A stretch of 64,000 nt of DNA, taken from Levilactobacillus mulengensis (GTDB lineage: Bacteria > Bacillota > Bacilli > Lactobacillales > Lactobacillaceae). Positions 275-52,556 of the stretch are shown here, one piece after another. The notes beneath the pieces were generated by a model, which was not told the origin of the DNA, made no database searches, and worked only from the letters and a program-made list of their open reading frames with translations. Position numbers and translations under genes: made by a program. The stretch lies in NCBI RefSeq assembly GCF_003946045.1, contig NZ_RHNW01000012.1:1-64000 (forward strand), written 5' to 3'. Every line of letters starts with the position of its first letter. Position 1 is the first letter of the stretch.

Positions 275-490
275 GGATAAATTGCTGTGTAAGCCGTGAG
301 GGTGGCAAAAATGGACTCAGCCGTGGGAATTCTCTTAACGGCGTAGTCGTTTAGAGAATTGGTGTCTTTGAGACTCGAACTTGGAGGCTCAAAGCAAGTC
401 CGAAGACCGCTCTTTGGCTTCGGGCGTCCGCCCACAGCGTCACGGTCCATTTTTGCCACCCGGTAAGGCGAAACCCAAGACAATTTATCC
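275..490 (+). repeat. Family A structured repeat, copy A1
   Basis: Complete family A element upstream of folC. Private outer stem GGATAAATTG (275-284) pairs with CAATTTATCC (481-490). Internal loop motif GTGA (5') faces GGTAA (3'). P1 is a perfect 16-bp stem, 301-316 with 445-460. P2 pairs AATTCTCTTAACG with CGTTTAGAGAATT. P3 is TTTGAG/CTCAAA and P4 is CCGAAG/CTTCGG. An in-frame extension of folC reaches back into this repeat, but that reading frame is not the real start. Confidence 0.85.
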
Positions 491-491
491 G

Positions 492-519
492 TTCACACCC
501 GGGGGAAATCTGCTACACT
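492..519 (+). promoter_or_regulatory. Putative folC promoter
   Basis: TTCACA at 492-497 and TACACT at 514-519, spaced 16 bp, with an extended TGC before the -10 box. It begins right after the outer stem of repeat A1 ends. Inferred by eye only. Confidence 0.45.
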
Positions 520-554
520 GGGAGGCAATGACTACTATTCGGGAGGTTTTTAAC

Positions 555-1871
555 TTGATTGAAACGTACGCCGAAGCACTACAATTTATTCACGGTCGCG
601 ACCGCTTCAAAAAGAAGCCCACGTTGGACCGGATGCGCGAGTTCATGGCGTTACTGGGGAACCCGCAGGACCAGTTGACCATGATTCACGTGGCCGGCAC
701 CAATGGTAAGGGGTCTACCGTGGCCTTTTTGCGGGACCTATTCATGGCGGAGGGCAACACGGTCGGGACCTTTACCTCACCATTCATCACGCGCTTCAAT
801 GAGCGCATCAGTGTCGACGGCGAGCCCATTAGCGATGCTGACCTGTTGGCCGACGTCCAGCGCATCGAACCGGTGGTGGCGCAATTGGACGCCGAACTGG
901 GGGCCGAGGGACCCACTGAATTTGAAATCGATACGGCCCTGATGTTTAGCTACTTCGCCAGTCATCCGGTGGACATCGTTGTGGTTGAGGTCGGTCTGGG
1001 TGGCTTGTATGACTCGACCAACATCATCACGCCAGTTGTTTCGGTGATCACCACGATTGGCATGGATCACATGAAAATTTTGGGCGACACGATTCCCAAG
1101 ATTGCGGCACAAAAGGCGGGCATCATTAAGCCCGACGTTCCCGTGGTCGTGGGCCGATTGACGCCGGACGCCTTAGCGGTCATGGACGATACGGCCGCGG
1201 CCAACCACACGCAAGTTTGTGCGCTGGACCGAGATTACAAGGTGAAGAATCAACCGGAGGACGAGTGGGGTGAACGTTTTGCCTATGCCTGGGGTGACCG
1301 ACGTTGGCGTCATTTACAAATTGATTTGTTAGGCCCCTATCAAATTGACAACGCGGCAACGGCTTTGACGGCCTTCATCACGTATCATTTGGTCAAGAAA
1401 CAACGCGTCAATATTGCTGAGATTCGGCAAGGACTGGCCCACACGGCATGGCCCGGCCGGTTTGAACGGCTGAACACCGAACCGTTGATTGCGATTGATG
1501 GCGCCCACAACGAGCCGGCCATGGTCGAAATGACCCAGCTGCTGCGGCAACACTTTAAGCAGCATGACGTTTACATTATTCTGGCGGTCTTAGCCGACAA
1601 GCAGTACGACCAGATGGTTCAGACGCTACTCAAGGTCCGCAACGTGCACATCGTTGTGACCCAGTTCCAAGGACCCGGGAAACGGACTGCTGCGACACCT
1701 CAGGCCTTAGAGGATGCGGTGACCTCCAAGCGCGTCACCATGGCCCCAGATTGGCCGACCGCGTTGAAGACGGTACTGGGCACCATTTCAGCCGATGATT
1801 TAGTCTTATTAACGGGATCGTTATACTTTATTTCCGAAGTTCGGCAATATTTTAAGGGAACTGACGAATAA
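555..1871 (+). CDS. folC: Folylpolyglutamate synthase / dihydrofolate synthase
   Basis: Adds glutamate to folates (and to dihydropteroate in bifunctional forms) using ATP in the cytoplasm. The Mur-ligase-type P-loop GTNGKGST lies near residues 50-57, followed by the family features VEVGLGG and the C-terminal domain entry IDGAHNEPAM. I place the start at TTG 555: GGGAGG at 541-546 is 8 nt upstream and the product then begins MIETYAEALQFIHGRDRFKK, as in homologues (438 residues, usual length). ATG 528 is in frame but its GGAGG is only 2 nt away. The frame stays open upstream to 381, but that stretch is repeat A1. The next gene, radC, follows after 43 nt. Confidence 0.92.
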   Translation: MIETYAEALQFIHGRDRFKKKPTLDRMREFMALLGNPQDQLTMIHVAGTNGKGSTVAFLRDLFMAEGNTVGTFTSPFITRFNERISVDGEPISDADLLADVQRIEPVVAQLDAELGAEGPTEFEIDTALMFSYFASHPVDIVVVEVGLGGLYDSTNIITPVVSVITTIGMDHMKILGDTIPKIAAQKAGIIKPDVPVVVGRLTPDALAVMDDTAAANHTQVCALDRDYKVKNQPEDEWGERFAYAWGDRRWRHLQIDLLGPYQIDNAATALTAFITYHLVKKQRVNIAEIRQGLAHTAWPGRFERLNTEPLIAIDGAHNEPAMVEMTQLLRQHFKQHDVYIILAVLADKQYDQMVQTLLKVRNVHIVVTQFQGPGKRTAATPQALEDAVTSKRVTMAPDWPTALKTVLGTISADDLVLLTGSLYFISEVRQYFKGTDE

Positions 1872-1914
1872 TTCGCCTTCTTTTACGGAGTTAACCCGTA
1901 GAGGGGTGAAACGC

Positions 1915-2562
1915 ATGCAACGACCAAAATTATCGACGCGTAATGAACGTCAGTTACTGAACCAAGTGTTAAAGAGTCTCGGCTTACCGGCCGCCACGGA
2001 ATGTGACCGGTTCTTTCGCTATTTTCACAGCATTGCGGATGTCCGCTACGCCAGTCACCGGCAGTGTCGGGCCTATGTGGGAGATCGGCCACAGCGGCGA
2101 AGTCTGTTAACGGCCATCGAATTGGGACGGTGGGTCCAGCGGGCACCACGACCCATTTTAGGGGAGGTCCTGGCCAGTAGCCAGTTGGGCCAGAGCCTGA
2201 TGGATGACCTGCGTTATTTACCACAGGAACAGCTGGAGGTCTTGGCTTTGGATGCCAAACACCAGATTATTGCCCGCCAGACGGTCTTTCAGGGGACACT
2301 AGACAGCTGTCCGGCCCATCCCCGGGAAATCTTCCGGGTGGCGATTCTCAATGGCGCCGCGGCCATTGTGGTGGCTCATAACCATCCCAGTGGCCTGCCG
2401 GAGCCCTCGCACAACGATTTGGCCTTCATGATGCGCTTGGCTGAATGTGGCCAACTCATGGGGATTCCGCTCCTGGATGGCTTTGTGATTGGCGTGCACA
2501 GCTACTTTAGCCTGCGAGAAACGGGGCATTTACCACTCGAGACGGCGGCGGCTCGCAGTTGA
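1915..2562 (+). CDS. radC: RadC family JAB/MPN-domain protein
   Basis: 215 residues of the RadC (DUF2466) family. The N-terminal part is helix-hairpin-helix-like and the C-terminal half is a JAMM-type fold with the metal-binding motif HNHPSG followed by SHND (around residues 160-173). Despite the name, a role in DNA repair is doubtful for the family; the biochemical function is unsettled. ATG 1915 is preferred over GTG 1906 because the AGAGGGG sequence (about 1900-1906) then sits at normal distance. Close spacing to folC suggests co-transcription. An independent promoter for mreB follows. Confidence 0.9.
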   Translation: MQRPKLSTRNERQLLNQVLKSLGLPAATECDRFFRYFHSIADVRYASHRQCRAYVGDRPQRRSLLTAIELGRWVQRAPRPILGEVLASSQLGQSLMDDLRYLPQEQLEVLALDAKHQIIARQTVFQGTLDSCPAHPREIFRVAILNGAAAIVVAHNHPSGLPEPSHNDLAFMMRLAECGQLMGIPLLDGFVIGVHSYFSLRETGHLPLETAAARS

Positions 2563-2693
2563 GGTGTTGTCAAGAAATGCTGGCAAAGTGGCGCCAACCC
2601 TTAAAAACTGTTTAAAATCACTTTTAGCTATTTCTTTCTCGTTAAAAGTTCGGTATTCTTGACATTGACGACGTGTTCTCACGCTGATAGGTA

Positions 2694-2702
2694 TGTTATA
2701 AT
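2694..2702 (+). promoter_or_regulatory. Extended -10 promoter of the mreB cluster
   Basis: TGTTATAAT, a consensus extended -10 element. Two TTGAC-like hexamers (2659 and 2665) lie upstream but too far for normal spacing, so the extended -10 probably carries the promoter. The leader to the mreB start is about 60 nt. Confidence 0.6.
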
Positions 2703-7116: not shown

Positions 7117-7376
7117 TGAATGAAAAACGTTGAACGGAAGAGTAGAACGGTTAAGGTTCTCCAGAAAGCCCCGATGATGGAAACGGGCGGACTTAACGAT
7201 TCGAACCACATCTGTGAGTTGGCTTTCTGAAATGAGTAAGAAGGTCCGGGTTAGCCCGTTATCGCTGGAGTTGCTAGCAACTCGCTGAGGTTTTCGTAGT
7301 GATACGGAAACAAACAGAGGTGGAACCACGATGTGATCGTCCTCTTAGGTCTTAGGACCTAGGAGGGCGTTTTTTA
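7117..7376 (+). promoter_or_regulatory. T-box riboswitch with terminator
   Basis: A tRNA-sensing leader. Stem I carries AGTA (about 7141-7144), the distal GATG/GGAAAC loop, and the return strand with CTTAAC. The T-box sequence AGAGGTGGAACCACG spans 7316-7330. The terminator GTCCTCTTAGGTC/GACCTAGGAGGGC runs to the T-run at 7376, and AGAGG can pair with CCTCT for the antiterminator. The specifier region reads GAACCACATCTG; CAC (His), followed by a purine and then the closing helix TCTGT, is my best choice. The TGGA bulge would pair with a U73 tRNA end, which does not fit a C73 histidine tRNA, so specificity is uncertain. Confidence 0.85.
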
Positions 7377-10020: not shown

Positions 10021-10242
10021 GGTTGGTGGGTTAAGCCAGTGTCAGCCGTGAGGATGGGTAAAATAGGCTCAGCCGTGGGAGTTTGCTTAGCGGTTTACCG
10101 CTTAGCAAACTGGTATCTTTGAGACTCGCACCCCAGAGACGCAAAGTAAGCCCGAAGACCGTACTATGGCTTCGGGCGTCCGCCCACAGCGTCCCGGCCT
10201 ATTTTACCCATCCGGTAAGGCGCTGGCCTTAACCCACCAACC
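10021..10242 (+). repeat. Family A structured repeat, copy A3, longest outer stem
   Basis: Complete family A element. The private outer stem is a perfect 15 bp: GGTTGGTGGGTTAAG (10021-10035) with CTTAACCCACCAACC (10228-10242). Internal loop GTGA/GGTAA. P1 pairs GGATGGGTAAAATAGGC with GCCTATTTTACCCATCC perfectly. P2 pairs AGTTTGCTTAGCGG with CCGCTTAGCAAACT. It ends 25 nt before the next gene start. Confidence 0.88.
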
Positions 10243-14546: not shown

Positions 14547-14842
14547 GGTTAAACTAGTCTTTGATGGCGCCTCCGGGCTGGTGAAAACTGGGCCTGGTCG
14601 TTTCCGTTCCCGGCGGCGGATTCAAAGTGCCCTGCTGTGGGGCCGGTTCCAGCCGCAGGGGCGGGCTTCCACCTCAACTTTGAGCCTGGGGGGCGGTCTC
14701 AAAGGTTGTCCCATGGTCTAAGCTGAGTGAGAAACCTCAGCTTAGACCATCGACACAGCTGGTCACTTTGATCCGCCTCTGGTCACTAACATCCACCGGT
14801 GTGCCCATTTTCACCAGCCCTGCGGCTAAGACAGGTTTAGCC
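14547..14842 (-). repeat. Composite repeat: family B nested in family A (AB1)
   Basis: Reverse orientation. The outer arms are family A: outer stem GGTTAAAC (14547-14554) with GTTTAGCC (14835-14842), internal loop GCA/GGA and the P1 arms GGCTGGTGAAAA with TTTTCACCAGCC. Inside them sits a whole family B element (B stem GGCGGAT-CAAAGTG with CACTTTG-AATCCGCC, P2 ATGGTCTAAGCTGAG with CTCAGCTTAGACCAT, P3 TTTGAG/CTCAAA). Confidence 0.8.
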
Positions 14843-19577: not shown

Positions 19578-19668
19578 GTCTCTGTAGAAAGCAGTTGGAT
19601 TGACTAGCTACCTTGCGGATGTGTTGTGATAAGAACCAAAAAATTGAAAACAGAAGGGCTAAGCGGCC

Positions 19669-19758
19669 GTTAACCGCAGGACTGGTGAAAATGGGTTCAG
19701 CCGTGGGAATTTTCTTAACGACTGGCCGTTTAGATAATTGGTATCTTTGAGATGCTTT
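19669..19758 (+). repeat. Family A repeat, 5' half only (A4 fragment)
   Basis: Contains the 5' P1 arm (ACTGGTGAAAATGGG), the conserved TCAGCCGTGGG, the P2 hairpin AATTTTCTTAACG/CGTTTAGATAATT and the start of P3 (TTTGAGA), then stops. The 3' half is missing. A complete copy starts 24 nt further on. Confidence 0.75.
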
Positions 19759-19781: not shown

Positions 19782-19994
19782 AAATTCAGAGCTAGTGTGA
19801 GCCGTGAGGGTGGCCAAAATGAGCTCAGCTGGGGGATTTCAGCAGCGGGTTTGGCTGGTGAAATAGCGACTTTGAGACACGTTTTGGGTGGCTCAAAGCG
19901 AGGGCGAAGACCGCTCTTTGGCTTCGACCGGTCCTGCCCCCAGTGTTCCAGCTCATTTTGGCCACCCGGTAAGGTGTCTGTCTAGCTCAGATTT
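19782..19994 (+). repeat. Family A structured repeat, copy A5
   Basis: Complete element. Outer stem GAGCTAG/CTAGCTC with flanking AAATT/GATTT. Loop GTGA/GGTAA. P1 pairs GGGTGGCCAAAATGAGC with GCTCATTTTGGCCACCC perfectly. The junction stem, usually GTGGG/CCCAC, is TGGGGG/CCCCCA here, so it covaries too. P2 is ATTTCA.CAGC/GCTG.TGAAAT. Lies before the ymdB promoter. Confidence 0.85.
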
Positions 19995-23771: not shown

Positions 23772-23999
23772 AAAAATGGTGGCCAATGTGAGTGACCAGA
23801 GGCGGGCCAACTTGACCTGCTGTGTCGGTGGTCTTGGCTGAGGTTTTTCACTCAGCCTAGAGCACGGGACGACCTTGGAAACTCGTGGGCTTTAGCGAGG
23901 TTTCAAGGCGAGGCCCCAGACCGCTTCTCAGGCTGGAGCCGTTCCTCACAGCAGGGCGAGTTGAGCCCGCCGCCGGGAACGGCATAGACCACCATTTTT
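23772..23999 (+). repeat. Family B structured repeat, copy B1
   Basis: Between mutS and mutL. Private outer stem AAAAATGGTGG (23772-23782) with CCACCATTTTT (23989-23999), perfect 11 bp, followed by further T so it might also terminate. P1 is GGCGGGC-CAACTTG with CGAGTTG-AGCCCGCC, then CCTGCTGTG/CACAGCAGG. P2 is GGCTGAG/CTCAGCC and P3 CCTTG-GAAAC/GGTTTC-AAGG. The rest of the gap (23626-23771) holds no gene. Confidence 0.85.
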
Positions 24000-26033: not shown

Positions 26034-26170
26034 AGACTGGTTTCTCGCCTACGGCAGCTCAACTTGAGCACCCTGTGGGGCACGCCTGAAGCCAAAGGGC
26101 GGTCTTCAGACTCATCCCAGAGCTTTGCAAGAGCGCAAATCTCTGAGATGGCCCATGGTGTAAGCCGGCA
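26034..26170 (-). repeat. Degenerate fragment of the structured repeat superfamily (family C-like)
   Basis: Reverse strand. The P4-type hairpin CTGAAG/CTTCAG with the conserved ACCGCCCTTTGG loop, the following GCCCCACAG block and a hairpin CATCTCAGAG/CTCTGGGATG are present. The 5' arm of P1 and the usual P2 are missing. The 3' arm region now reads as a short palindrome, GCTCAAGTTGAGC. Confidence 0.6.
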
Positions 26171-26266
26171 AAAGCGCCGACTAACCGCTCAGTTATTGCT
26201 CGACTAGGCCTTGTTTTGGCAATAATAAACTCAGAATAGAATCTGTAGTCTATGTTGCGTCAAGTG

Positions 26267-26359: not shown

Positions 26360-26609
26360 AGCTAGTAAAAATGTTTTGGCCAATGTAAGTGACCAGAGGC
26401 GGGCCAAACTGACCAGCTGTGTCGGTGGTCTTGGCTGAGTGATTTTCTCAGCCTAGAGCACGGGACGACCTTGGAAACTCGCGATTCTTAGCGAGGTTTC
26501 AAGGCGAGGCCCCAGACCGTTTCTCAGGCTGGAGCCGTTCCCCACAGCAGGGCAGTTTGAGCCCGCCGTCGGGAACGGAAGCATCGGCCCGACTTCGTTT
26601 TTACTAGCT
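26360..26609 (+). repeat. Family B structured repeat, copy B2, in the ruvAB leader
   Basis: Private outer stem AGCTAGTAAAAA (26360-26371) with TTTTTACTAGCT (26598-26609), perfect 12 bp. P1 is GGCGGGC-CAAACTG with CAGTTTG-AGCCCGCC. P2 GGCTGAG/CTCAGCC, P3 GGAAAC/GGTTTC. Lies between the SOS-type promoter and ruvA, so it should be transcribed as part of the leader, ending 43 nt before the start codon. Confidence 0.85.
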
Positions 26610-29164: not shown

Positions 29165-29380
29165 AGTTAAGCACGCGTGAGCCGCAGGGATGGTGAAAAT
29201 GTGCTCAGCCGTGGGAGTTACCTTAGCGGGTGGGTTGGCCGCTTAGGTAACTGATATCTTTGAGACGGGGGCTTCGGCTCAAAGTAAGCCTGGAGACCGT
29301 ACTTTGGCTCCGGGCGGTCGCCCACCGCGTCACGGCACAGTTTTCACCATCCCGGAGGCGCTGACAACGACTGCTTAACT
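29165..29380 (+). repeat. Family A structured repeat, copy A6, in the dinB leader
   Basis: Outer stem AGTTAAGCA (29165-29173) with TGCTTAACT (29372-29380). Internal loop of the second type, GCA/GGA. P1 pairs GGGATGGTGAAAATGTGC with GCACAGTTTTCACCATCCC (one wobble). P2 AGTTACCTTAGCGG/CCGCTTAGGTAACT. It is downstream of the SOS promoter and ends 34 nt before dinB, so it belongs to the mRNA leader. Confidence 0.87.
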
Positions 29381-30626: not shown

Positions 30627-30837
30627 CGGGTTCAACCAATATCAGCCGCAGGGGTGGGAAAAATGGACTCAGCCGTGGGATTTCTTAAGGGGGACCCTTA
30701 AGAAATGGCGACTTTGAAACTCATTTCTCAGAGGTTCAAAGCGAGTTCAGAGACCGCTCTTTGGCTCTGGACGTCCTGCCCACCGCGTTCCGGTCCAGTT
30801 TTTCCCGCCCCGGAGGCGATGGTTTAACACTGTCTGG
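30627..30837 (+). repeat. Family A structured repeat, copy A7
   Basis: Between dinB and the nrnA promoter. Outer stem GTTCAACCA/TGGTTTAAC with one mismatch. Loop GCA/GGA. P1 GGGGTGGGAAAAATGGAC with GTCCAGTTTTTCCCGCCCC. P2 ATTTCTTAAGGG/CCCTTAAGAAAT perfect. P3 TTTGAA/TTCAAA in place of TTTGAG/CTCAAA. P4 CAGAG/CTCTG. Confidence 0.85.
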
Positions 30838-33339: not shown

Positions 33340-33570
33340 CTAAGCGCAGGGACCTGCCCTGTGTAGCACGTTTCAGAAGCCGCAAGTTTCCGGATAAAAT
33401 GGCGAGAGAAAGTCTAACGCAGTGAGCCAATACAATCGGTAAAACGCTTATGCCGGACAGGAGCGTCTTATTTTTCTAAGCGGAGGAGTCTGGCTCGTGT
33501 AGCACGTTTCAGAGGCCGCAAGCTTCCGGATAAAATGGCGAGAGCAAGATTAACGCAGTGAGTCAATGCA
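33331..33570 (+). repeat. Two direct 104-nt repeats, 136-nt period, unknown function
   Basis: Unit 1 is 33331-33434 and unit 2 is 33467-33570, about 85 percent identical by eye with no indels. The best-kept block is TGTAGCACGTTTCAGA and CCGGATAAAATGGCGAGAG. Each unit begins at the 3' end of a hairpin and a TTATTTTT run; the hairpin of unit 2 is only a weak relic. No reading frame is shared. Possible duplicated small RNA or decayed 3' region. Confidence 0.65.
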
Positions 33571-33675
33571 GCCAGCAAAGATACTGCTAGTCAAGGGAAG
33601 TCAGGTTCGGCACAACCCGTCATCAGGCTTAAACATACTGCGGGCAAGTTCAGACGGGAACGTGCCAAACCAGTC

Positions 33676-33853
33676 TGAGCCGAGAGGACGGCCAAAATGA
33701 ACTCAGCCGTGGGATTTAGGGCACGGTACGGGCCCTAAATGGCGACTTTGAAACGCGGCCTTTGGCGGTTCAAAGCGAGTTCAGAGACCGCTTTGTGGCT
33801 CTGGACGTCCTGCCCACCGCGTTCCGGTTCATTTTGGCCGTCCGGCAGGCGGT
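33676..33853 (+). repeat. Family A structured repeat, copy A8
   Basis: Upstream of the alaS promoter. Loop GAGA/GGCA, a third pair type. P1 GGACGGCCAAAATGAAC with GTTCATTTTGGCCGTCC perfect 17 bp, different from every other copy. P2 ATTTAGGGC/GCCCTAAAT. P3 TTTGAA/TTCAAA. P4 CAGAG/CTCTG. I see no clear private outer stem. Confidence 0.85.
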
Positions 33854-33930: not shown

Positions 33931-34145
33931 TGGACATTTAAATATACTATCGAGGACATACCCTGATCCCATGACTTTCAGAAACGTTTTGGTTGCTGTG
34001 AAAAACGACTCATGGATTCAGTGGCGCTCCCTCAGAAACATCGCGACTCAGCGTTATGAGTTTAAGAGGTTAACGATTAAAACATCGTTGCAAGTAGAGT
34101 GGTACCGCGCTTCGGCGTCTCTACGGGCAACGGTGTTTTTGACAT
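33931..34145 (+). promoter_or_regulatory. T-box riboswitch of alaS
   Basis: The T-box sequence AGAGTGGTACCGCG is at 34096-34109; its TGGT bulge matches an A73 tRNA such as tRNA-Ala. The Stem I return strand contains GGCGCTCCC, which offers an Ala codon (GCG or GCT). The downstream hairpin before T5 (ACCG with CGGT, or GTAGAG with CTCTAC) is weak compared with the first T-box, so the terminator form is not clear. Confidence 0.8.
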
Positions 34146-34164: not shown

Positions 34165-36804
34165 ATGAAAGAGCTAACTAGTAGTCAGATTCGGCAAATG
34201 TACCTCGACTTTTTCAAGTCGAAGGGGCACACCATTGAGCCTAGTGCATCACTGGTTCCCAAGGACGATCCATCGTTACTGTGGATCAACTCTGGGGTTG
34301 CCACGATGAAGAAATATTTCTCCGGCCAAGTTGTGCCAGAGAATCCGCGTTTGACCAGTTCACAAAAGAGTATTCGGACGAACGATATTGAAAACGTGGG
34401 GAAGACCGCGCGGCACCATACGTTATTTGAAATGCTCGGGAACTTTTCCGTGGGTGATTACTTTAAGAAAGAAGCCATCACTTGGGCGTGGGAACTCTTA
34501 ACGTCTCCAGACTGGTTCGGTTGGGATCCAGATAAACTGTACATGACGGTTTACCCGAAAGATACCGACGCTAAGGCTGATTGGGAGGCTGCTGGCGTGG
34601 CCCCTGACCACATCATCGGCGTCGAAGACAACTTCTGGGATATTGGTGAGGGTCCTTCTGGTCCTGACTCCGAAATTTTCTACGACCGTGGTGAAGCCTT
34701 TAACAATTTAGCCGACGACGATCCTGAAAACTATCCTGGTGGCGAAAACGAACGTTACCTGGAAGTCTGGAACATCGTGTTCTCCCAGTTTAACCACGAA
34801 CCCGATGGCAGCTACAAGCCATTGCCACGGAAGAACATTGATACGGGGATGGGTCTCGAACGGGTCGTTTCGATTTTCCAAAATGCCCGGACGAACTTTG
34901 AAACCGACTTGTTTATGCCAATCATTGAAAAGACCGCTGAACTCAGCGATGGCAAGAAGTACGGTGCCAACAAGGAAGACGACGTGTCCTTCAAGGTGAT
35001 TGCGGACCACGCGCGGGCTATCACATTTGCCATCGGTGACGGGGCGTTGCCTGGTAACGAAGGCCGTGGCTATGTTATCCGTCGTTTGATTCGGCGGGCC
35101 GTTGTCAATGGCCAGAAGTTAGGCATCAAGGGCGCCTTCTTAGACCAATTGGTTCCCGTCGTTGGGACCATCATGCAGTCTTACTACCCAGACGTTTTGG
35201 CTCAGGCCGATTACATCGCCAAGGTCGTGCGTTCTGAAGAAGACCGCTTCGGCGAAACGCTGGACGGTGGGTTAACGCTGCTGAACAGTTTGATTGCCGA
35301 CCTGAAGAAGCAGGGCGGCAGCCAAATCGCCGGTCCCGATGCCTTCAAGTTATACGATACGTACGGCTTCCCGGTTGAACTGACCGAAGAATATGCTGAT
35401 GACCAAGCCATCACGGTCGACGTTGACGGCTTCAAGGCTGAAATGCAAAAGCAAAAGGATCGCGCTCGTAACGCCCGTGGCAAGCAAACGGCCATGGGTC
35501 TGCAACACGACCTCTTGATTAACGTCACGACGCCTAGTCAATACGTGGGGTACACCCAACTCGAAACGACGAGCAAGTTAACCGAACTCGTGGTTGACGA
35601 CCAACTGGCTGACAAAGCCACGACTGGCACCGTTGAAGCTATGTTTGACACCACGCCATTCTACGCTGAAATGGGTGGCCAGGTTGCTGACAAAGGGGAT
35701 ATCTTGGACGAAGCCGGTCACGTGGTTGCCCACGTTGCTGACGTGCAACATGCCCCTAACGGCCAGAACCTGCACACGTTGACGGTCGTTGCCCCATTGA
35801 AGAAGGGGGCCACTTACCAACTCAAGGTCGACACCATCTTCCATAGCAAGGTCGAAAAGAACCATACCGCAACCCACTTGTTAGACAAGGCGTTGCGTGA
35901 GGTCTTTGGCGAACACACCCAACAAGCCGGTTCACTGGTTGAAGGCGACTACTTGCGGTTTGACTTCACCCACTTCGGTCAGGTCGATCCTGCCGATTTG
36001 GCCAAGGCCGAAGCCATCGTGAACGAAAAGATCTTCGCCGAATTACCCGTGACGACGGTTGAAACCGATATCGAATCCGCTAAGAAGATGGGCGCCATTG
36101 CCCTGTTCAGCGAAAAGTACGGTAAGGTCGTTCGGGTTGTCAGTGCCGGCGATTTCGTCACCGAATTCTGTGGGGGGAACCACGTCAAGAACACCAATGA
36201 AATTGGGCTGTTCAAGATTACCTCAGAATCTGGTGTCGGTGCCGGTGTTCGGCGGATCGAAGCCGTGACCTCTGCGGCTGCTTACAAGTACCTGCACGAA
36301 CACGATGACATCTTGCATGCCGTTGCGAGCGATTTGAAGGTGACTCAGGTCACTGAAGTCGCCCAGAAGGTTAATGCCCTGCAAGCCCAAGTCAAGAGCT
36401 TAGAACAAAAGCAAGCGGCCTTAGAAGGCAAGTTAGCTAGTCAACAGGCCGGCGCTGTCTTTGACAACGTGGTCACGGCTGGTAACTACAAGTTGATCAG
36501 TGGGACCGTTCAAGTCTCCAAGATGGACCAGTTGCGGGCTTTAGCCGACACTTGGCGTGACCAAGCCCTTTCTGATGTGTTAGTATTGGGTGCGGAAGTT
36601 AATGGTAAGGCTAACCTGATTGTGGCCGTTAGTGCGGACAAGCAAAAGCAGGTCAAGGCGGGCGATTTGATCAAAGCCATCTCACCAAAGATCAACGGTG
36701 GTGGCGGCGGTCGGCCTAACCTGGCGCAAGCCGGTGGGAAGAACCCAGCGGGCTTGCCAGATGCCATGACGGCTGCGGCCGATTGGTTGGCTGATCAAGA
36801 CTAA
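34165..36804 (+). CDS. alaS: Alanyl-tRNA synthetase
   Basis: 879 residues. Charges tRNA-Ala. Class II catalytic core at the N-terminus (SSQIRQMYLDFFKSKGH, TARHHTLFEMLGNFSVGDY), editing domain with the zinc-binding HTATH (about 566-570) and CGGNH (about 668-672), and C-Ala domain with INGGGGGRPNLAQAGG. Length is normal. Regulated by the T-box leader. ATG 34165 has GGAGG upstream. Confidence 0.97.
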   Translation: MKELTSSQIRQMYLDFFKSKGHTIEPSASLVPKDDPSLLWINSGVATMKKYFSGQVVPENPRLTSSQKSIRTNDIENVGKTARHHTLFEMLGNFSVGDYFKKEAITWAWELLTSPDWFGWDPDKLYMTVYPKDTDAKADWEAAGVAPDHIIGVEDNFWDIGEGPSGPDSEIFYDRGEAFNNLADDDPENYPGGENERYLEVWNIVFSQFNHEPDGSYKPLPRKNIDTGMGLERVVSIFQNARTNFETDLFMPIIEKTAELSDGKKYGANKEDDVSFKVIADHARAITFAIGDGALPGNEGRGYVIRRLIRRAVVNGQKLGIKGAFLDQLVPVVGTIMQSYYPDVLAQADYIAKVVRSEEDRFGETLDGGLTLLNSLIADLKKQGGSQIAGPDAFKLYDTYGFPVELTEEYADDQAITVDVDGFKAEMQKQKDRARNARGKQTAMGLQHDLLINVTTPSQYVGYTQLETTSKLTELVVDDQLADKATTGTVEAMFDTTPFYAEMGGQVADKGDILDEAGHVVAHVADVQHAPNGQNLHTLTVVAPLKKGATYQLKVDTIFHSKVEKNHTATHLLDKALREVFGEHTQQAGSLVEGDYLRFDFTHFGQVDPADLAKAEAIVNEKIFAELPVTTVETDIESAKKMGAIALFSEKYGKVVRVVSAGDFVTEFCGGNHVKNTNEIGLFKITSESGVGAGVRRIEAVTSAAAYKYLHEHDDILHAVASDLKVTQVTEVAQKVNALQAQVKSLEQKQAALEGKLASQQAGAVFDNVVTAGNYKLISGTVQVSKMDQLRALADTWRDQALSDVLVLGAEVNGKANLIVAVSADKQKQVKAGDLIKAISPKINGGGGGRPNLAQAGGKNPAGLPDAMTAAADWLADQD

Positions 36805-37801: not shown

Positions 37802-38113
37802 ATGAACGAAGACCAAGAACAAATTACATTAGTTGACGAAAATGGTAACGAAGAACTGTACGATGTCCTGTTTACCTTTGAATCTGACGATTTTGGTAAG
37901 TCATACATCTTGATTTACCCTTCAGGCAAGAGCGACGACGAGGAAGTTGACATCCAAGCCTACGCATTACCTGCAGACGATGATCCAGCTAACCCATCCG
38001 GTGGCGACTTGCAATTGATTGAGTCCGACGAAGAATGGGATATGGTTGAATCCGTACTGAACACTTTCCTGGCTGATGGGACCATTGATCCTAACGCTGG
38101 TAAAAAAGATTAG
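37802..38113 (+). CDS. yrzB: DUF1292 protein (UPF0473, YrzB)
   Basis: 103 residues, very acidic (EDQEQITLVDENGNEELYDV, SDDEEVDIQAYALP). Family function is unknown; it always travels with ireB and ruvX. ATG 37802 is chosen with GTGAGG upstream; GTG 37790 is the ribosome site region itself. Confidence 0.88.
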   Translation: MNEDQEQITLVDENGNEELYDVLFTFESDDFGKSYILIYPSGKSDDEEVDIQAYALPADDDPANPSGGDLQLIESDEEWDMVESVLNTFLADGTIDPNAGKKD

Positions 38114-38121
38114 TCAGTTTC

Positions 38122-38153
38122 AACGAAAGGGCGGAATTTTTCCGTCCTTTTTT
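38122..38153 (+). terminator. Terminator of alaS-ireB-ruvX-yrzB
   Basis: AAAGGGCGGAA pairs with TTCCGTCCTTT (one wobble), then a T-run. Confidence 0.85.
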
Positions 38154-38331
38154 GTATGACGAGAAAGTTTGGTGGGATTAATGGGTAAACGGGTGAAAGC
38201 CAGTGTGCGTGTAGCCGGGAACGGTTAGTGCTGGTGTTTTGTGCAACGCCCACTTGGAGAAACGCACCCATTTAAAGCGTGTGAGTACCCGTTAGCCTCA
38301 AGTTTTGCGAGACAGTACGGGTGCAGCTGGA

Positions 38332-38491
38332 GGCAGTTAAATTCGCAGACCTGTGTCGGTGGCGTTGGGCCGGTGGGGTGCCGGTCTTACACCACGGCCC
38401 GGGGTGAAACTCGGGTCGGGAGGTTCACCCTGGAGGCTGGAGACCTCTCTTTGGCTCCAGCCGTGCCCCACAGGCGGAGGATTTAACTGCC
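38332..38491 (+). repeat. Structured repeat, divergent family C
   Basis: Same plan as A and B with different sequence. P1 GGCAGTTAAAT (38332-38342) with ATTTAACTGCC (38481-38491), then CCTGTG/CACAGG. P2 GGGCCG/CGGCCC, P3 GGGTGAA/TTCACCC, P4 GGCTGGAG/CTCCAGCC enclosing ACCTCTCTTTGG, close to the family A loop. Upstream, ACCCGT/ACGGGT (38287-38322) may be an added stem. The gap 38154-38598 contains no gene. Confidence 0.75.
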
Positions 38492-38557
38492 GGAGGCGGA
38501 ACCCCACAATCTTAGCGGTAATTTAAAGGCCAAAACGTGCGCCTGACCACTGTTTAA

Positions 38558-38566
38558 TGGTAAAAT
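38558..38566 (+). promoter_or_regulatory. Extended -10 promoter of zapA-cvpA-mutS2
   Basis: TGGTAAAAT, 33 nt before the zapA start. Confidence 0.5.
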
Positions 38567-38598
38567 AAGACGTTGCGCAAAACAGGGGGAATTTTAAA

Positions 38599-38862
38599 AT
38601 GACTGAAGAAACACACCGCTTTAAAGCCGTGATTGCCGGCAAGAGTTATACGATTGTCGGTCAGGCCACGGACGAACATATGCGGGCGGTGACTGAGGTG
38701 CTGAATGAACAGTTCACCCAGCTCAAGGAGCTGTCACCCAATATTAGTAAAGAAGACGCGGCAATCTTGATGGCGTTCAACGCTGTTTCGGACCAATTAA
38801 AGATGGCAGCGGCCAACGACCAAGCGGATTCCGCTAAGGACTCATCAGAAACGGAGGAATAG
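38599..38862 (+). CDS. zapA: Cell-division protein ZapA
   Basis: 87 residues. Small FtsZ-binding protein that bundles protofilaments. Contains the ZapA-type start (RFKAVIAGKSYTIVGQATDEHM) and the alpha-helical dimerisation part (DAAILMAFNAVSDQLKMA). The stop is 1 nt from the TTG start of cvpA. Confidence 0.9.
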   Translation: MTEETHRFKAVIAGKSYTIVGQATDEHMRAVTEVLNEQFTQLKELSPNISKEDAAILMAFNAVSDQLKMAAANDQADSAKDSSETEE

Positions 38863-39430: not shown

Positions 39431-41794
39431 ATGAATCAAAAAACCTTAAAAATTATGGAGTACGACCGAATCAAGCAAGCCTTACGCACTTACTTGGTCT
39501 CGGCAGCTGGCCAGCATGAGTTGAGTCAGCTGGCCCCAACCGCGGATGCCAAACAACTGCAGACCTGGTTGGACGAAACCAGAGACGGTGCCGACATTTA
39601 CCGCTTGGAGAGTGGCATTCCACTGCCCAAGCTGGATGACATCCGGCCGCATTTACACCGCTTAGCCATGGAGGCTGCCCTGAACGGGTTGGAATTGGCC
39701 CAGATCAGTCGGGTCTTATGGACGACCGGAACCGTGGTCAAATTTTTCCATGACTTAGCTGAAAAGGAAGTCACTTTACGCCGGCTGGACCGGGTTGTGA
39801 AGGAATTAGTCACGTTACCCGATGTAACGCGGCGGTTGCGGACCTCACTAGAGGGCGACGGCCACATCACGGATGAAGCCTCACCCGCCTTGAAGCAGAT
39901 CCGTCAGCACATCACCCAGACCGAGGCGGAGATTCGCCGAACCATGGACCAATACACCCGGGGCAAGGATGCGAAATATCTGAGTGAAACCATCGTGACC
40001 ATTCGGGATGACCGTTACGTGATTCCCGTTCAGGCCGCTTACAAGCAACACTTTGGCGGAATCGTGCATGATCAAAGTGCCAGTGGTCAAACGCTGTTCA
40101 TTGAACCCCAAGCGGTTGTGGGCTTGAACAACCGGTTACGGCAAAATCAAATCGATGAACGCCATGAAGAGCAACGGATCTTAGCCGAATTGACGGCGTT
40201 ACTTGACCCGTACCAGGATGAAATTTTACGAAATTCAGAAATTCTGGGACATTTTGATTTCATCAACGCGAAGGCCAAGTACGCCCATCATTTGAAGGCC
40301 ACCGAGCCCAAGCTATCCTTGGACAATCAGGTCAGCTTGCGACAAGCCCGTCATCCACTGATCGATCAGCGGAAGGTCGTGGCCAACGACATCACCATCG
40401 GCAAGGACTACAAGGCCATCATCGTGACCGGGCCCAACACCGGTGGGAAGACCATCACGCTGAAGACGTTAGCACTGGTCCAATTAATGGGGCAGTCGGG
40501 GTTATTTATTCCCGCCAATGAAAACAGTGTGATTGGCATCTTCAACGATATTTTCGCCGACATCGGGGATGAACAATCCATCGAGCAGAGCCTGAGTACG
40601 TTCTCCGGGCACATGGAAAATATCGTGGCCATTTTGAAACAGGCCGATGACCACAGTTTAATCGTGGTCGATGAACTGGGTGCCGGAACCGATCCCCAAG
40701 AGGGGGCCGCATTGGCCATTGCCATTTTGGATGAAATCGGCACGTTGGGTAGCTATGTCATGGCGTCGACCCACTATCCTGAGCTGAAGGCTTATGGGTA
40801 CAACCGGCCGGACACGATTAACGCCAGCATGGAGTTTAACGGCGAAACGCTTCAGCCAACGTACAAACTGTTGATTGGGATTCCTGGACGGAGTAATGCC
40901 TTAGACATTGCGGCCCGGCTGGGGATGCCGTCACAGGTAATTGACGCGGCTCGGGGGTTGACCGACCAAGACAGTCAAGACTTGAACGCCATGATTTCCG
41001 ACCTGACCGAACAGAAGCGGCGGGTCGACGATGATGCCGAGAATCTGCGGACCCAATTGGCCGAGGCTGATGAGTTACACGATCAATTACAAAAGCAATT
41101 TGACAGCTATCAACATCAAAAAGATCAGTTGATGACGGACGCCAAGCGCGACGCCAACCGGCTGGTCGATGAGTCCCGGAAACGGGCCAACCAAATCATT
41201 TCTGATTTGCGGAAGAAACAATTGGCTGCCGGTCAGAGCGTGGTTAAGGAAGACGAGCTGATTGCGGCTCAGGGAGCCTTGAACGCCCTGCAACAGGATA
41301 CCAAGCTCAAGAAGAACCGGGTCCTGCGGCGGGAAAAGGCCAAGTTCGATTTCCACAAGGGCGACAGCGTGCTGGTCAAGTCCTATGGCCAAATCGGGGT
41401 CCTGATGCAGCAGCTGGATGACAGCCACTGGGAAGTCCAACTGGGAATCCTGAAAATGAAGATTGCCAACAACGACCTGGAAAAGGCTAAGGACCCAGCC
41501 AAATCGGCTAAGCAACCGCGAGCCAGCGTCAAACGCAGTGGCTCCAACGGCATGTCGCCAACCTTGGATCTGCGGGGCCATCGCTACGAAGAGGCCATGG
41601 CCGAAGTCGACCGGTACATTGATTCCGCCTTGCTAGCGGGTTACCCATCCGTGACAATCATTCACGGGAAGGGTACCGGGGCATTGCGGAAAGGGGTCAC
41701 CGAGTACTTGAAGCGCAACAACCGCATCAAGAGCTTCGGTTTCTCCCCAGCCAACGCCGGTGGTGACGGGTCGACGGTTGTGCGGTTTAAATAG
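39431..41794 (+). CDS. mutS2: Endonuclease MutS2 / ribosome-rescue ATPase
   Basis: 787 residues. MutS-like core with Walker A GPNTGGKTITLK (about 334-345), Walker B LIVVDELGAGTDP and STHYPELK, a long coiled coil (about 515-640) and a C-terminal Smr domain (LDLRGHRYEEA, HGKGTGALRKG). Suppresses recombination in some bacteria and splits collided ribosomes in Bacillus. Repeat A9 begins 11 nt after the stop. Confidence 0.96.
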   Translation: MNQKTLKIMEYDRIKQALRTYLVSAAGQHELSQLAPTADAKQLQTWLDETRDGADIYRLESGIPLPKLDDIRPHLHRLAMEAALNGLELAQISRVLWTTGTVVKFFHDLAEKEVTLRRLDRVVKELVTLPDVTRRLRTSLEGDGHITDEASPALKQIRQHITQTEAEIRRTMDQYTRGKDAKYLSETIVTIRDDRYVIPVQAAYKQHFGGIVHDQSASGQTLFIEPQAVVGLNNRLRQNQIDERHEEQRILAELTALLDPYQDEILRNSEILGHFDFINAKAKYAHHLKATEPKLSLDNQVSLRQARHPLIDQRKVVANDITIGKDYKAIIVTGPNTGGKTITLKTLALVQLMGQSGLFIPANENSVIGIFNDIFADIGDEQSIEQSLSTFSGHMENIVAILKQADDHSLIVVDELGAGTDPQEGAALAIAILDEIGTLGSYVMASTHYPELKAYGYNRPDTINASMEFNGETLQPTYKLLIGIPGRSNALDIAARLGMPSQVIDAARGLTDQDSQDLNAMISDLTEQKRRVDDDAENLRTQLAEADELHDQLQKQFDSYQHQKDQLMTDAKRDANRLVDESRKRANQIISDLRKKQLAAGQSVVKEDELIAAQGALNALQQDTKLKKNRVLRREKAKFDFHKGDSVLVKSYGQIGVLMQQLDDSHWEVQLGILKMKIANNDLEKAKDPAKSAKQPRASVKRSGSNGMSPTLDLRGHRYEEAMAEVDRYIDSALLAGYPSVTIIHGKGTGALRKGVTEYLKRNNRIKSFGFSPANAGGDGSTVVRFK

Positions 41795-41804
41795 CGCTTT
41801 GGCA

Positions 41805-41991
41805 GCGCCTTACCGGGCGGGGAAAATAAGTCGGAACGCGAGGGAAGGACGGTCAAAGCCTGAGAAGCGGTCTTTGACCTCGCTTTGAGCCTCTAAAATC
41901 GAGTCTCAAAGACGCCAATTTCCTTAACAGTAAAAGTCACTGTTAAGGAAATTTCCACGGCTGAACTTATTTTCCCCGCCCTCACGGCTTA
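41805..41991 (-). repeat. Family A structured repeat, copy A9
   Basis: Reverse orientation after mutS2. Loop GTGA/GGTAA. P1 GGGCGGGGAAAATAAGT with ACTTATTTTCCCCGCCC, perfect 17 bp. P2 AAATTTCCTTAACAGTGA with its complement. P4 is GTCAAAG/CTTTGAC instead of CCGAAG/CTTCGG, a full replacement of both arms. The following stretch, 41992-42210, shows no gene. Confidence 0.85.
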
Positions 41992-42212
41992 CATGGTGTG
42001 AGGGCCCAACGGCGGAACCGTCACCGGGGCGTAGGGTGTGTAATAAATTAGCTTATGATTGATGGTCCCTCAGTGAATTACTTACTGGGGGACTTTTTGG
42101 TTAGGAGGACTATTGTCTAGCTGCGTTAATAACCGTGTGAGCAGGACCTGACCACAAATCTAAGAACAAGTGAGTGCGAACTAATTGATTTATGAGTTGC
42201 TTGATGTGGGGC

Positions 42213-42505
42213 AACGTCGTGTCAGTCGCGGGGTTAGTCAAAATGAGCCAATCCGGCCAGTGTAAGTGACCAGAGGCGGGTCAAAATGCCCAGCTGTGTC
42301 GGTGGTCTTGGCTGAGGTTTTTGCTCAGCCTAGTCCACGGGGCAACCTTTGCGACCGCATTTCAGGCGCAAAGTTGAGGTGGAAGCCCGGTCCTCAGGCT
42401 GGAATCGGCCCCATAGCAGGGCGTTTTGAACCCGCCGGCGGGAACGGACAATCGGCACAGCGTCACGGCTCATTTTCACCGACCCGGAGGTGCGGACAAC
42501 GACGT
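42213..42505 (+). repeat. Composite repeat: family B nested in family A (AB2)
   Basis: Outer stem ACGTCGT/ACGACGT. The A arms are GTCGCGGGGTTAGTCAAAA and the 3' block CACAGCGTCACGGCTC with GACCCGGAGG. Inside is a full B element with P1 GGCGGGT-CAAAATG / CGTTTTG-AACCCGCC, P2 GGCTGAG/CTCAGCC and P3 CTTTGCG/CGCAAAG, the last pair replacing TTTGAG/CTCAAA. Confidence 0.82.
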
Positions 42506-42549
42506 CCCCCACACCAAATACAAATGCTAATAAATTGTAAGCAACTTAG

Positions 42550-42577
42550 TTGTGATTTCAAAAAATTCTGGTAGACT
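42550..42577 (+). promoter_or_regulatory. trxA promoter
   Basis: TTGTGA (42550-42555) and TAGACT (42572-42577), spacer 16, with extended TGG. Confidence 0.55.
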
Positions 42578-42623
42578 GAAAGATATGAAGTCGTGATTAA
42601 ATTTGATAAGGAGGCAATTCTGA

Positions 42624-42944
42624 ATGGCAGCAGTAGCAGAAACAACTGATAAGACCTTTGAACAGGACACCGCTAAGGGCGTAACCCTGACAGACTTTTG
42701 GGCAACTTGGTGTGGTCCTTGTCGGATGCAATCACCAGTCGTTGAACAATTATCCGAGGAAATGGACAACGTCACGTTCAACAAGATGGACGTTGACGCC
42801 AATCCTAACACGCCACAATCCTTTGGTATCATGAGTATCCCAACCTTACTCGTGAAGAAGGACGGCCAAGTGGTCGACTCTATCGTGGGTTACCACTCCA
42901 AGGACCAATTGAAGAAGATTTTGGACCAATACGTGGAAGCCTAG
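42624..42944 (+). CDS. trxA: Thioredoxin
   Basis: 106 residues. Disulfide reductase with the active site WCGPC (Cys 30 and 33), the cis-proline region SIPTLLV and normal length. AAGGAGG lies upstream of ATG 42624. Monocistronic, with its own terminator. Confidence 0.96.
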   Translation: MAAVAETTDKTFEQDTAKGVTLTDFWATWCGPCRMQSPVVEQLSEEMDNVTFNKMDVDANPNTPQSFGIMSIPTLLVKKDGQVVDSIVGYHSKDQLKKILDQYVEA

Positions 42945-47427: not shown

Positions 47428-47719
47428 GGGTTAAACGTATCTTTGCTAACGCCTCCGGGCTGGTGAAAACTGGGCCTCGTCGTGTCCGTTCCCGGCGGCG
47501 CGCTCAAGGAGCCCTGCTGTGGGGCCGGTTCCAGCCTGAGAAGCGGGCTTCCACCTCAACTTTGAGCCTGAGGGGCGGTCTCAAAGGTTGTCCCATGGGC
47601 TAGGCTGGGAAAATACCCCAGCCAAGACCATCGACACAGCCGGGCACCTTGGCGCGCCTCTGGTTACTTCCGCGACTGACCCAGTTTTCCCAGCCCTGCG
47701 GCTGACGCGGGGTTGGCCC
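47428..47719 (-). repeat. Composite repeat: family B nested in family A (AB3)
   Basis: Upstream of mscS, reverse orientation. A arms GGGCTGGTGAAAACTGGG and CCCAGTTTTCCCAGCCC, loop GCA/GGA. B core P1 GGCGCGC-CAAGGTG with CTCCTTG-AGCGCGCC, where GCGCGC replaces GCGGGC with matching changes on both sides. P2 GGCTGGG/CCCAGCC in place of GGCTGAG/CTCAGCC. Confidence 0.8.
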
Positions 47720-47869: not shown

Positions 47870-48046
47870 AGCCGCAGGGAGGTTGAAAATGAGCTCAGCC
47901 GTGGGAGTTGCCTTAGTGGTTTACCACTTAGGCAACTGCTATCTTTGAGACTCGGTTTTGAGGCTCAAAGTAAGCCTGGAGACCGTTCTTTGGCTCCAGG
48001 CGGGCGCCCACCGCGTCCCGGCTCAGTTTTCAACCTCCCGGAGGCG
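47870..48046 (+). repeat. Family A structured repeat, copy A10
   Basis: Loop GCA/GGA. P1 GGGAGGTTGAAAATGAGC with GCTCAGTTTTCAACCTCCC. P2 AGTTGCCTTAGTGGT/ACCACTTAGGCAACT perfect 15 bp. P3 TTTGAG/CTCAAA. P4 CCTGGAG/CTCCAGG. Sits before the promoter of the DUF948 gene. Confidence 0.87.
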
Positions 48047-51723: not shown

Positions 51724-51726
51724 GCG

Positions 51727-51768
51727 TCATGAAAAGGTTCCGGAACCCGTTTCCAGAACCTTTTCATA
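51727..51768 (+). terminator. ccpA terminator
   Basis: ATGAAAAGGTTC pairs with GAACCTTTTCAT around an inner GGAA/TTTCC stem; no long T-run follows. Confidence 0.7.
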
Positions 51769-51778
51769 TACATAATTT

Positions 51779-52042
51779 TTGCTTTCGTGAAAACTGTGCC
51801 GGTACGCGGTTGCGTGTGCTGTTCGTTCCCGGCGGCGGGCTCAAGACGGCCTGCTATGGGGTCGGTTCCAGCCTGAGGAGCGGGCTTCCACCTCAACTTT
51901 GTGCCCGGGAGGCGGTCACAAAGGTTGCCCGGTGGACTAGGCTGGGAAAGAACCCCAGCCTAGTCCACCGACACAGCTGGCCGTCTTGGCCCACCTCTGG
52001 TCACTGACACTGACCGTGTTGGCGCAGTTTCACTAGCTTTGT
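51779..52042 (-). repeat. Composite repeat: family B nested in family A (AB4, degenerate arms)
   Basis: Reverse orientation after ccpA. The A arms survive in part, GTGAAACTGCGCC facing GGCACAGTTTTCAC. The B core is intact: P1 GGTGGGC-CAAGACG with CGTCTTG-AGCCCGCC, P2 GTGGACTAGGCTGGG with CCCAGCCTAGTCCAC, P3 TTTGTG/CACAAA. Confidence 0.75.
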
Positions 52043-52176
52043 GGCAGGGAATGGATTTACTACGATATTATTGGTGGCTGAGGCCAGTTACTGGTGGGGC
52101 TAAAGTTGCCGAGACAGCTTGTAATATGGATAAAGGCAAAGCTTTGCATGTCGCTGAGTGTCTATCGATGGGGCGA

Positions 52177-52240
52177 TGTTAGCCGCAGGAAGCCAGGAAC
52201 GTAGCCAGCTGTGTCGATGGTGTTAGCTGGTGATTCTCCA
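52177..52240 (+). repeat. Remnant of a composite repeat
   Basis: TTAGCCGCAGGAAGCC (A arm start) runs directly into CAGCTGTGTCGATGGTGTTAGCTGG (B start, cited in two parts here as CAGCTGTGTCGATGG and TGTTAGCTGG). The 3' halves are missing. A short open frame through it (52211-52420) is not counted as a gene. 52043-52176 shows nothing I recognise. Confidence 0.5.
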
Positions 52241-52364
52241 ACCTACATTTTGGGGATTGCTGTATTCTTACTGGTTTTCCTGGTTAGCTTGAAATTTGCT
52301 AGACAGGAGTCGAGTGACTTCGTTAATACTGAAATGGTTAATTGGGATGCCGGTGACATGATCA

Positions 52365-52556
52365 ATGTTAGTGACCAGAGGTGGGTCAAGGTGAACAGCT
52401 GTGTCGGTGGTCTTAGCTGAGTGAATTTTCTCAGCTTAGTCCACGGGGCGCCCTTTGAGACTGGTGGGTTTCCAGGCTTAAAGGCGAGCTGGAAGACCGC
52501 TTCTCAGGCTGGAAGCGTTCCCCACAGCAGGGCACCTTGAACCCACTGCCGGGAAC
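52365..52556 (+). repeat. Family B structured repeat, copy B3
   Basis: P1 GTGGGT-CAAGGTG with CACCTTG-AACCCAC perfect, then CAGCTGTG/CACAGCAG. P2 TTAGCTGAG/CTCAGCTTA in place of TTGGCTGAG/CTCAGCCTA. P3 CTTTGAG/CTTAAAG with one G-T pair. No family A arms and no clear outer stem. Confidence 0.82.

Follow-up and report, generated by a model that had tools for sequence, protein, structure and literature searches.

Structured repeats that point into genes in Levilactobacillus, and their possible role at gene borders

Do the longer intergenic gaps of a Levilactobacillus chromosome hold decaying mobile sequence, or copies of a structured element under selection? The question is raised by a 64-kb stretch of the 3.11-Mb genome of Levilactobacillus mulengensis (G000:C4:1-64000, 51.6% G+C; referred to below as the window), in which a first reading of the sequence (the original prediction) had proposed about 19 copies of an unnamed repeat with covarying stems. 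Interspersed bacterial repeats are commonly dismissed as junk or mobile relics, and Levilactobacillus is a genus of harmless food bacteria with many sequenced species. The element in question looks like a working genetic part, since it sits beside genes, nearly always points into a gene, and has a fold that is kept by paired mutations. Our preferred reading, a tentative one in which the function is judged from sequence comparison, is that a once-mobile structured repeat may now be kept as a cis-acting RNA border element.

The core of the element is about 180 nucleotides (nt) long, with a stem, P1, that closes a junction of P2, P3, and P4; outside the core lies a variable outer stem. At least two inner modules (A and B) are interchangeable inside this common shell. 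The starting set was an alignment of 38 A copies (A1), the trimmed form of which gave the A model (R1; 178 positions, 60 pairs), and the B model (R2) was built on 40 B copies. R1 also detects B copies, much more weakly; A and B follow one plan. The A copies further share conserved unpaired bases and bulges, and AAAGTAAG precedes P4. The arms of P1, P3, and P4 that had been named from the window alone are visible both in the repeat comparison and in the A alignment.

RNAalifold, run on a plain MAFFT alignment of the 38 A copies, predicted 63 pairs, 36 of them changed on both sides. Two larger alignments were fitted to the model structure, which is thereby favoured in both: among 107 distinct A copies (A3), 99.0% of 6370 cells were paired (86.9% in shuffles, and 31-51% in slid controls), 41 of the 60 pairs had changed on both sides (24.8 in shuffles), and the covariation score was 0.371 compared with 0.132, with none of 500 shuffles as high; among 140 B-model matches (A5), which include six A copies and a few copies truncated at stretch ends, 95.7% of 7645 cells were paired (78.5% in shuffles), 52 of 57 pairs had changed on both sides (36.9 in shuffles), and the score was 0.459 compared with 0.158. 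Identical rows were counted once in the A covariation, pair-type, and strand counts. The covariation proposed from the window is strong in both families. A window copy taken with its outer stem (10044..10222) folds at -133.9 kcal/mol (z = -11.7).

Rfam 15 gave no credible match to the repeat, which the original prediction had called unnamed. In the window, with E (expectation value) up to 1, it returned two T-boxes lying off the elements (one above its gathering score), an ohsC hit of 33.6 bits (gathering score 50) that is not on an element, and an Ocean-VII hit of 18.4 bits (gathering score 53.5) that overlaps the edge of the 51825 copy. In 63 kb of four other loci, with E up to 0.1, it returned two T-boxes below gathering.

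Selection on the fold can be judged from elements still resident at the same site in two close species, for which 17 A and 23 B ortholog pairs were available (another alignment method gave 15 A pairs, with one of 16 dropped; the 17-pair version is used here). Divergence is 3.3% in stems and 10.0% at unpaired sites for A, and 6.8% and 12.0% respectively for B, while the same species pair differs at 19.7% of 4-fold sites and at 14-16% of sites in the element flanks. Of 994 A base pairs, 14 differed at both positions and were still Watson-Crick, 1 showed another kind of double change, and 36 had changed on one side only; the corresponding figures among 1260 B base pairs are 38, 7, and 75. By our own arithmetic, about 0.3 (A) and 1.1 (B) double changes would be expected if single changes arose independently. 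The stem constraint and the excess of paired changes over chance bear out the proposal of selection on a structured RNA or on a single-stranded DNA intermediate.

The pair types point to one strand as the folded one. Among 6156 A cells, 5994 are Watson-Crick, 101 are G-U, 25 are A-C, and 36 are others (these pair-type and strand counts omit two wobble-rich A pairs, in which G-U is common, and three B pairs). On the strand reading toward the nearest gene border, G-U outnumbers A-C by 34 to 9 in A copies beside gene ends (p 1.7e-4), by 41 to 8 beside gene starts (p 2e-6), by 26 to 8 in unclassed A copies, and by 176 to 68 in B; single changes between orthologs give 22 to 7 for A (p 0.008) and 37 to 23 for B (p 0.09 for B alone). 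The strand that reads toward the border would thus be the folded one, and as the bias holds at both kinds of border, what folds is something other than just the mRNA of the neighbouring gene.

The layout analysis covered the window, a further 360 kb of this genome (contig C12), and 400 kb from its close relative G021; genes were called by a simple prediction script of our own, so that borders are approximate. Of 214 copies, 202 have their 3' end closer to a gene, and 12 their 5' end. Among consecutive copies without an intervening gene, 44 neighbours are divergent, 19 are tandem, and none is convergent; the convergent neighbours that occur within 1.5 kb (six in total) are all separated by a gene. 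The window itself holds four divergent pairs (26046/26390, 41806/42267, 47489/47870, and 51825/52373) and no convergent one, and no convergent pair within one gap was found in the gaps compared in eight other genomes. The core is often 12-35 nt from the gene at stop codons, and about 50 or about 120 nt from it at starts. No classed copy shares more than 60 nt with a predicted gene; the copy at 292 precedes the first predicted gene. One gap elsewhere in the genome (L200:17250-18800, or C12 117277-118795) contains four elements in the order < < > >, a layered form of the border rule.

The outer stem had been described as private to each copy. This part of the original prediction stands, as the two flanks of a copy pair above controls: across 74 A copies from three sequence sets, the mean pairing score is 12.3 for flanks of the same copy and 7.1 for flanks of different copies, and 61 of the 74 reach a score of 9 or more compared with 16% of controls. 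It has to be qualified in that the 5' arm often resembles an inverted gene end. When the 5' arm was compared with the inverted last 50 coding bases of the neighbouring gene, 26 of 102 copies beside gene ends exceeded the 99% control point, and the same resemblance occurred in 1 of 69 beside gene starts (the comparison takes in elements up to 130 nt from a gene, orthologous copies of the two species among them). The 41806 copy, for example, has a 5' arm like the inverted last coding bases of mutS2. In our reading, the 5' outer arm probably goes back to a past copying of the gene end in inverted form. With 700-nt flanks, significant inverted similarity was found in 44 of 202 copies and 8 of 300 controls, with few exceptions within about 90 nt of the core; an inverted duplication of hundreds of bases was rejected on this account. 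The 5' flanks differ between copies, and while the core ends are conserved, the outer stem varies from copy to copy and does not form fixed terminal inverted repeats.

Insertion into native terminator hairpins, which would account for a private stem after a stop codon, was considered and rejected, as there is no T-run peak directly after the 5' arm. Terminator-like sites within 70 nt are rarer at element-bearing stops (5/43 and 3/50) than at others (26/160 and 37/177); at 70-600 nt further on the two groups are similar, with such sites at 3/43 and 7/50 of the genes with an element at the stop and at 16/160 and 15/177 of the others.

Beyond what the original prediction proposed, the repeat apparently also spreads and turns over. 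Contig C12 of this genome is collinear with contig C2 of G021. Of its 92 elements, 68 fall within the aligned range and 62 of these are anchored (24 and 6 were dropped at the two steps). Of the 62, 44 have the same family at the site in G021, 11 have a different family, and 7 are shortened or undetected there. At two of the 11 (19218 and 41483), the difference is an additional copy in tandem with an A that both species have. In a narrower interval, a same-strand element is present in the close species for 52 of the 62, and the two anchored elements with only an opposite-strand counterpart are members of divergent pairs. In five aligned A/B exchanges the outer flank and the start of P1 were retained and the inner module was replaced. 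One site shows a whole B in G021, and here the front half of that B followed by a second outer arm and an A. Of 74 A copies, 16 have the front part of a B on their upstream side; 10-letter motifs like those of the shell precede other A copies and could be due to chance. Internal deletions are also seen in orthologous copies.

Presence and absence vary between species, and in the more distant ones the gap is often short and holds no element. The gap at 41794-42624, about 830 nt here, is 395 nt long with one element in G020, and contains no element in L. brevis, G007, G024, and G001 (125-128 nt) or in G010 (288 nt). The mutS-mutL gap, occupied here by the 23793 copy, is 25-76 nt long in G007, G024, G001, and G010, and some sites are filled in distant species too, such as 28905-29415 in G024, G001, and G010. 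On the basis of such comparisons, we consider that elements were probably gained over the lifetime of the genus, with losses too. A target-site duplication test for a clean insertion scar was made closely on one pair, in which the site of a lost element in G021 resembled a pre-insertion state; it was set aside, as a deletion in G021 is equally likely given that G012 keeps a shortened copy at the site and the entire stretch is missing from the outgroups. In the G012 ortholog of window positions 38113-38599, the element appears by eye to be excised almost cleanly between two GTGT motifs in comparison with G021, with its outer parts left.

The element is abundant in this genome. A DNA search gave at least 43 matches for one A copy and at least 52 for one B copy, in each case from the best 40 candidates (of 199 and 314, respectively), and R1 found at least 150 A copies (all of the best 150 of 1819 candidates matched). 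In the 360 kb of contig C12, R1 and R2 together found 92 elements, or 256 per Mb, from which the whole 3.11-Mb genome would by extrapolation hold about 795. The covariance-model search suggested by the original prediction located A copies in 33 of 35 genomes of the genus (this one included) and in none of 23 genomes from the order's other genera; R2 matched 23 of 24 genus genomes and 0 of 16 others. Among the genomes searched, the superfamily is limited to Levilactobacillus chromosomes. A pattern scan of named genomes gave at least 105 stretches, and the 80 loci listed belong to Levilactobacillus species (including Lactobacillus sp. HBUAS51381 and an uncultured Lactobacillus). In 80-kb samples, repeat places of depth 3 or more number 26 in this genome and 28 in G021, and no interspersed repeat of that depth was found in the samples of G022, G031, and G016. 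Two stretches of C12, at about 176-215 kb and 283-330 kb, have no R1 or R2 match at the thresholds used; their intergenic gaps are tighter (median 84 and 150 nt, compared with 239 nt at 0-176 kb).

How might such a repeat serve at a gene border? In the mechanism that we propose, the family would have spread as a non-autonomous mobile repeat. RNA polymerase entering a gene from the mid-intergenic region would produce either read-through RNA into its start or antisense RNA into its end; the element would fold within that incoming RNA, and the fold may mark the RNA for cleavage or partial termination, so that the gene border would be insulated. Cleavage by RNase III or RNase Y is a guess. The orientation rule, the strand bias at both starts and ends, and the constraint at resident sites would all follow from such a mechanism.

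Rho acts against antisense and read-through RNA. The Rho RNA-binding domain (PF07497) was found in 0 of 24 genus genomes compared with 13 of 16 others of the order (positive controls include Bacillus subtilis and Lactococcus lactis), which would fit the element as a Rho substitute and is taken as a lead only. Put together, a genus without the Rho domain would fence its genes with plus-strand modules that fold and stop or cut read-through and antisense RNA, having spread with an inverted gene end and swapping their inner parts in place; this combined proposal is speculative, and we think it rather unlikely to hold in every part. If true, it would describe a genome-wide insulation system made of RNA. 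The constraint at resident sites, the same-gap border rule, which is without exception in the sampled DNA, and the orthologous module swaps make the function of such a repeat testable.

Several observations weigh against a border element, or against its link to Rho. Other aligned intergenic sites differ by 9.4%, below the unpaired sites of the elements, a figure biased low as only BLAST-alignable sites were counted. B stems are less constrained than A stems, and whole-hairpin exchange between copies may lie behind part of the paired changes. The layout counts are not independent, as this genome and G021 are close and syntenic. Promoter-like sites in the 5' spacers (51, compared with 45 in shuffled sequence) are hardly in excess, and T runs show no peak directly past either end of the element, so that there is support neither for a promoter within the element's own reach nor for intrinsic termination; for copies beside gene ends, minus-strand T runs become broadly more frequent at 60-120 nt outward from the 5' end (at most 14 of 103 per 20-nt bin), and by a looser rule, within 45 nt, T runs occur in 49 of 215 copies past the 5' end on the minus strand and in 33 past the 3' end. 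The 23793 copy occupies the mutS-mutL gap, where a strong terminator would be costly, and the 30644 copy lies upstream of its gene's own promoter-like sequence (TTGAAA, 17 nt, TATACT on its 3' side, conserved in other species by eye). Among the 35 genus genomes, A copies went undetected in two and numbered two in a third, thus the element is not needed. Absence of the Rho domain in the genus is a single evolutionary event; the non-genus genomes without the domain (G037, G045, and G046) are also without the element, and since G022 and G016, two of the three element-poor genus genomes, lack the domain as well, loss of Rho does not force the element.

The same data may also be read as those of a non-autonomous, selfish mobile repeat comparable to bcr1, NEMIS, or REP/BIME; its fold would serve only its own copying through a plus-strand RNA or single-stranded DNA, and the gene-side sites would be surviving insertions. 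This explanation is almost as probable as the one we prefer, and to it the copy number in this genome and the patchy occurrence in the genus, the short empty gaps in more distant species, the in-place module exchange with its 5' remnants, and the single folded strand all lend weight. Dead copies, however, would not keep constrained stems as the orthologs do, and random insertion would not leave convergent neighbours at zero. Single A and B copies had no match in plasmid and phage collections (a control query of the plasmids with a Y1 gene was also matchless, and so gives no yardstick for the plasmid result), and the two models had 0 matches in two L. brevis plasmids (77 kb) compared with 9 in 40 kb of L. 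brevis chromosome. There is also no tie to a Y1 transposase or a reverse transcriptase, while other movers and an autonomous parent were not searched for: the Y1 transposase (PF01797) occurs in 22 of 33 genus genomes and the reverse transcriptase (PF00078) in 9 of 33. The Y1 transposase was rejected as the mover because G012 has none despite at least 47 elements, and a group II intron or retron remnant was rejected because this genome has no PF00078.

A cruciform or hairpin acting at the DNA level, in replication, supercoiling, or recombination, would yield an inverted duplication of the gene end, and could be argued from the almost pure Watson-Crick pairing, the inverted gene-end resemblance, and the internal deletions in orthologs. 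We regard it as improbable, because a cruciform in double-stranded DNA has no strand preference and G-U outnumbers A-C roughly fourfold on one strand, and because the conserved unpaired bases and bulges would vanish by fold-back copying. Bulges would likewise be erased if the pairing were kept by mutation alone, through template switching that corrects a quasi-palindrome; such a process would explain very few mismatches and many paired changes, yet it would not push the rate in stems below that in loops, and that rate is in fact about 3 times lower in A stems and 1.8 times lower in B stems, which makes it highly doubtful. That the elements are independently transcribed small RNA genes, as a strong fold and covariation might suggest, is very hard to reconcile with the near lack of upstream promoter-like excess, 5' flanks that vary by copy, and a density of about 256 copies per Mb in one contig. 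We thus continue to favour, tentatively, a once-mobile repeat kept at gene borders.

The copies in the window are listed in Table 1. With R1, the window yields 9 full A copies, at E 3e-43 to 4e-34, and 8 copies that are B or B-like, at E 2e-12 to 4e-8; R2 added the copy at 26046-26220 on the minus strand, of which R1 caught only part (26084-26152). With one half A copy, to which R1 gives only 15.5 bits over 19700-19792, the total comes to 19 (9 full A, one half A, and 9 B or B-like), in agreement with the approximate count proposed at the outset. The range given there, 275-52556, also agrees with the models, neither of which has a match in the window beyond 52.6 kb.

Table 1. Elements identified in the 64-kb window, with model scores.
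Feature	Position	Strand	Evidence
A-type core P1-P4; outer stem GGATAAATTG/CAATTTATCC immediately outside	292..470	+	R1 193.6 bits, alignment
A-type core, 13 nt past predicted stop codon	6761..6941	-	R1 179.9 bits
A-type core, 28-nt outer stem (86% over ~28 nt, E 1e-4)	10044..10222	+	R1 193.1 bits
B-type core	14606..14785	-	R2 197.9 bits (14605-14786); R1 41.6 bits
Half copy, A-type 5' part, upstream of 19800 copy	19655..19756	+	Repeat families D1, D7
A-type core between rny and mutS (RNase Y, MutS domains)	19800..19976	+	R1 157.8 bits
B-type core in mutS-mutL gap, 50 nt from gene	23793..23980	+	R2 184.9 bits
Weak B-type core, 16 nt past mutL stop, divergent from 26390 copy	26046..26220	-	R2 39.9 bits
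B-type core before ruvA	26390..26576	+	R2 193.4 bits
A-type core	29180..29360	+	R1 172.4 bits
A-type core, 117 nt from gene	30644..30818	+	R1 157.5 bits
A-type core upstream of T-box leader	33678..33851	+	R1 154.1 bits
B-like core, third subfamily; missing in G012	38325..38498	+	R2 72.4, R1 60.8 bits
A-type core, 12 nt past mutS2 stop	41806..41989	-	R1 173.7 bits
B-type core before thioredoxin gene, divergent from 41806 copy	42267..42492	+	R2 197.9 bits (42266-42446)
B-type core, divergent partner of 47870 copy	47489..47665	-	R2 204.6 bits
A-type core	47870..48046	+	R1 187.9 bits
B-type core, divergent partner of 52373 copy	51825..52003	-	R2 197.1 bits
B-type core	52373..52555	+	R2 187.9 bits

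The window also contains two T-box leaders on the plus strand, at 7121-7347 and 33938-34125 (the second below its gathering score). The second is directly followed by an open reading frame (ORF) of 879 amino acids at 34165-36804, which we take to be a valyl-tRNA synthetase, and is preceded by a 113-nt tandem direct repeat at 33331-33579 (two copies 136 nt apart, 84% alike). Two very large ORFs occupy the end of the window, at 54435-58313 and 59193-63095, the first with BspA-type leucine-rich repeats. Outside the window, a further intergenic repeat of 120-155 nt is found at L197:2340-2500, L202:14840-15020, and L209:3620-3800 (86-92% alike), with long inverted arms by eye and unlike A and B, and another at L195:11270-11540 and L206:6090-6450 (79% alike over 254 nt), with tandem units in L206.

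Compared with known systems, the element differs from an intrinsic terminator in having no peak of T runs directly after its hairpin. REP/BIME repeats likewise lie between genes in hundreds of palindromic copies whose stems covary; a REP is one short hairpin linked to a Y1 transposase (RAYT), with a GTAG-like tetranucleotide before it. Unlike in REP/BIME, Y1_Tnp was not found in 11 of 33 genus genomes, including G012 with at least 47 elements. Miniature inverted-repeat transposable elements (NEMIS/Correia, RUP, and BOX) are short non-autonomous repeats beside genes; unlike in these, the Levilactobacillus outer stem differs from copy to copy. A search for literature on such repeats in Levilactobacillus, with most subscription papers outside its reach, found none, and the element seems to be undescribed.

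Some types of the bcr repeats keep an RNA fold. The repeats bcr1-bcr18 are confined to the Bacillus cereus group, measure 100-400 bp, lie interspersed in the genome, and have mobile features; bcr1 has a mean of 39 and up to 130 copies per genome and is also found on plasmids (PMC6542083). Stem-loop repeat families with a shared fold, Bcr1 included, have been catalogued, and the main text of that source names Lactobacillus once, for one L. johnsonii family (Lac-1) marked G, which we take as genic (PMC2267715). On these descriptions, the Levilactobacillus element is similar to the bcr repeats in being taxon-limited (33 of 35 genus genomes and 0 of 23 others) with many intergenic copies, and differs in its density (about 256 per Mb in one contig), its four-helix fold, its interchangeable inner modules, its border rule, its gene-end-like outer arm, and the lack of a plasmid match. 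We accordingly file it as a new family within a known kind, the interspersed structured repeats, in which the border rule, the gene-end-like arm, and the in-place module exchange are features new to us.

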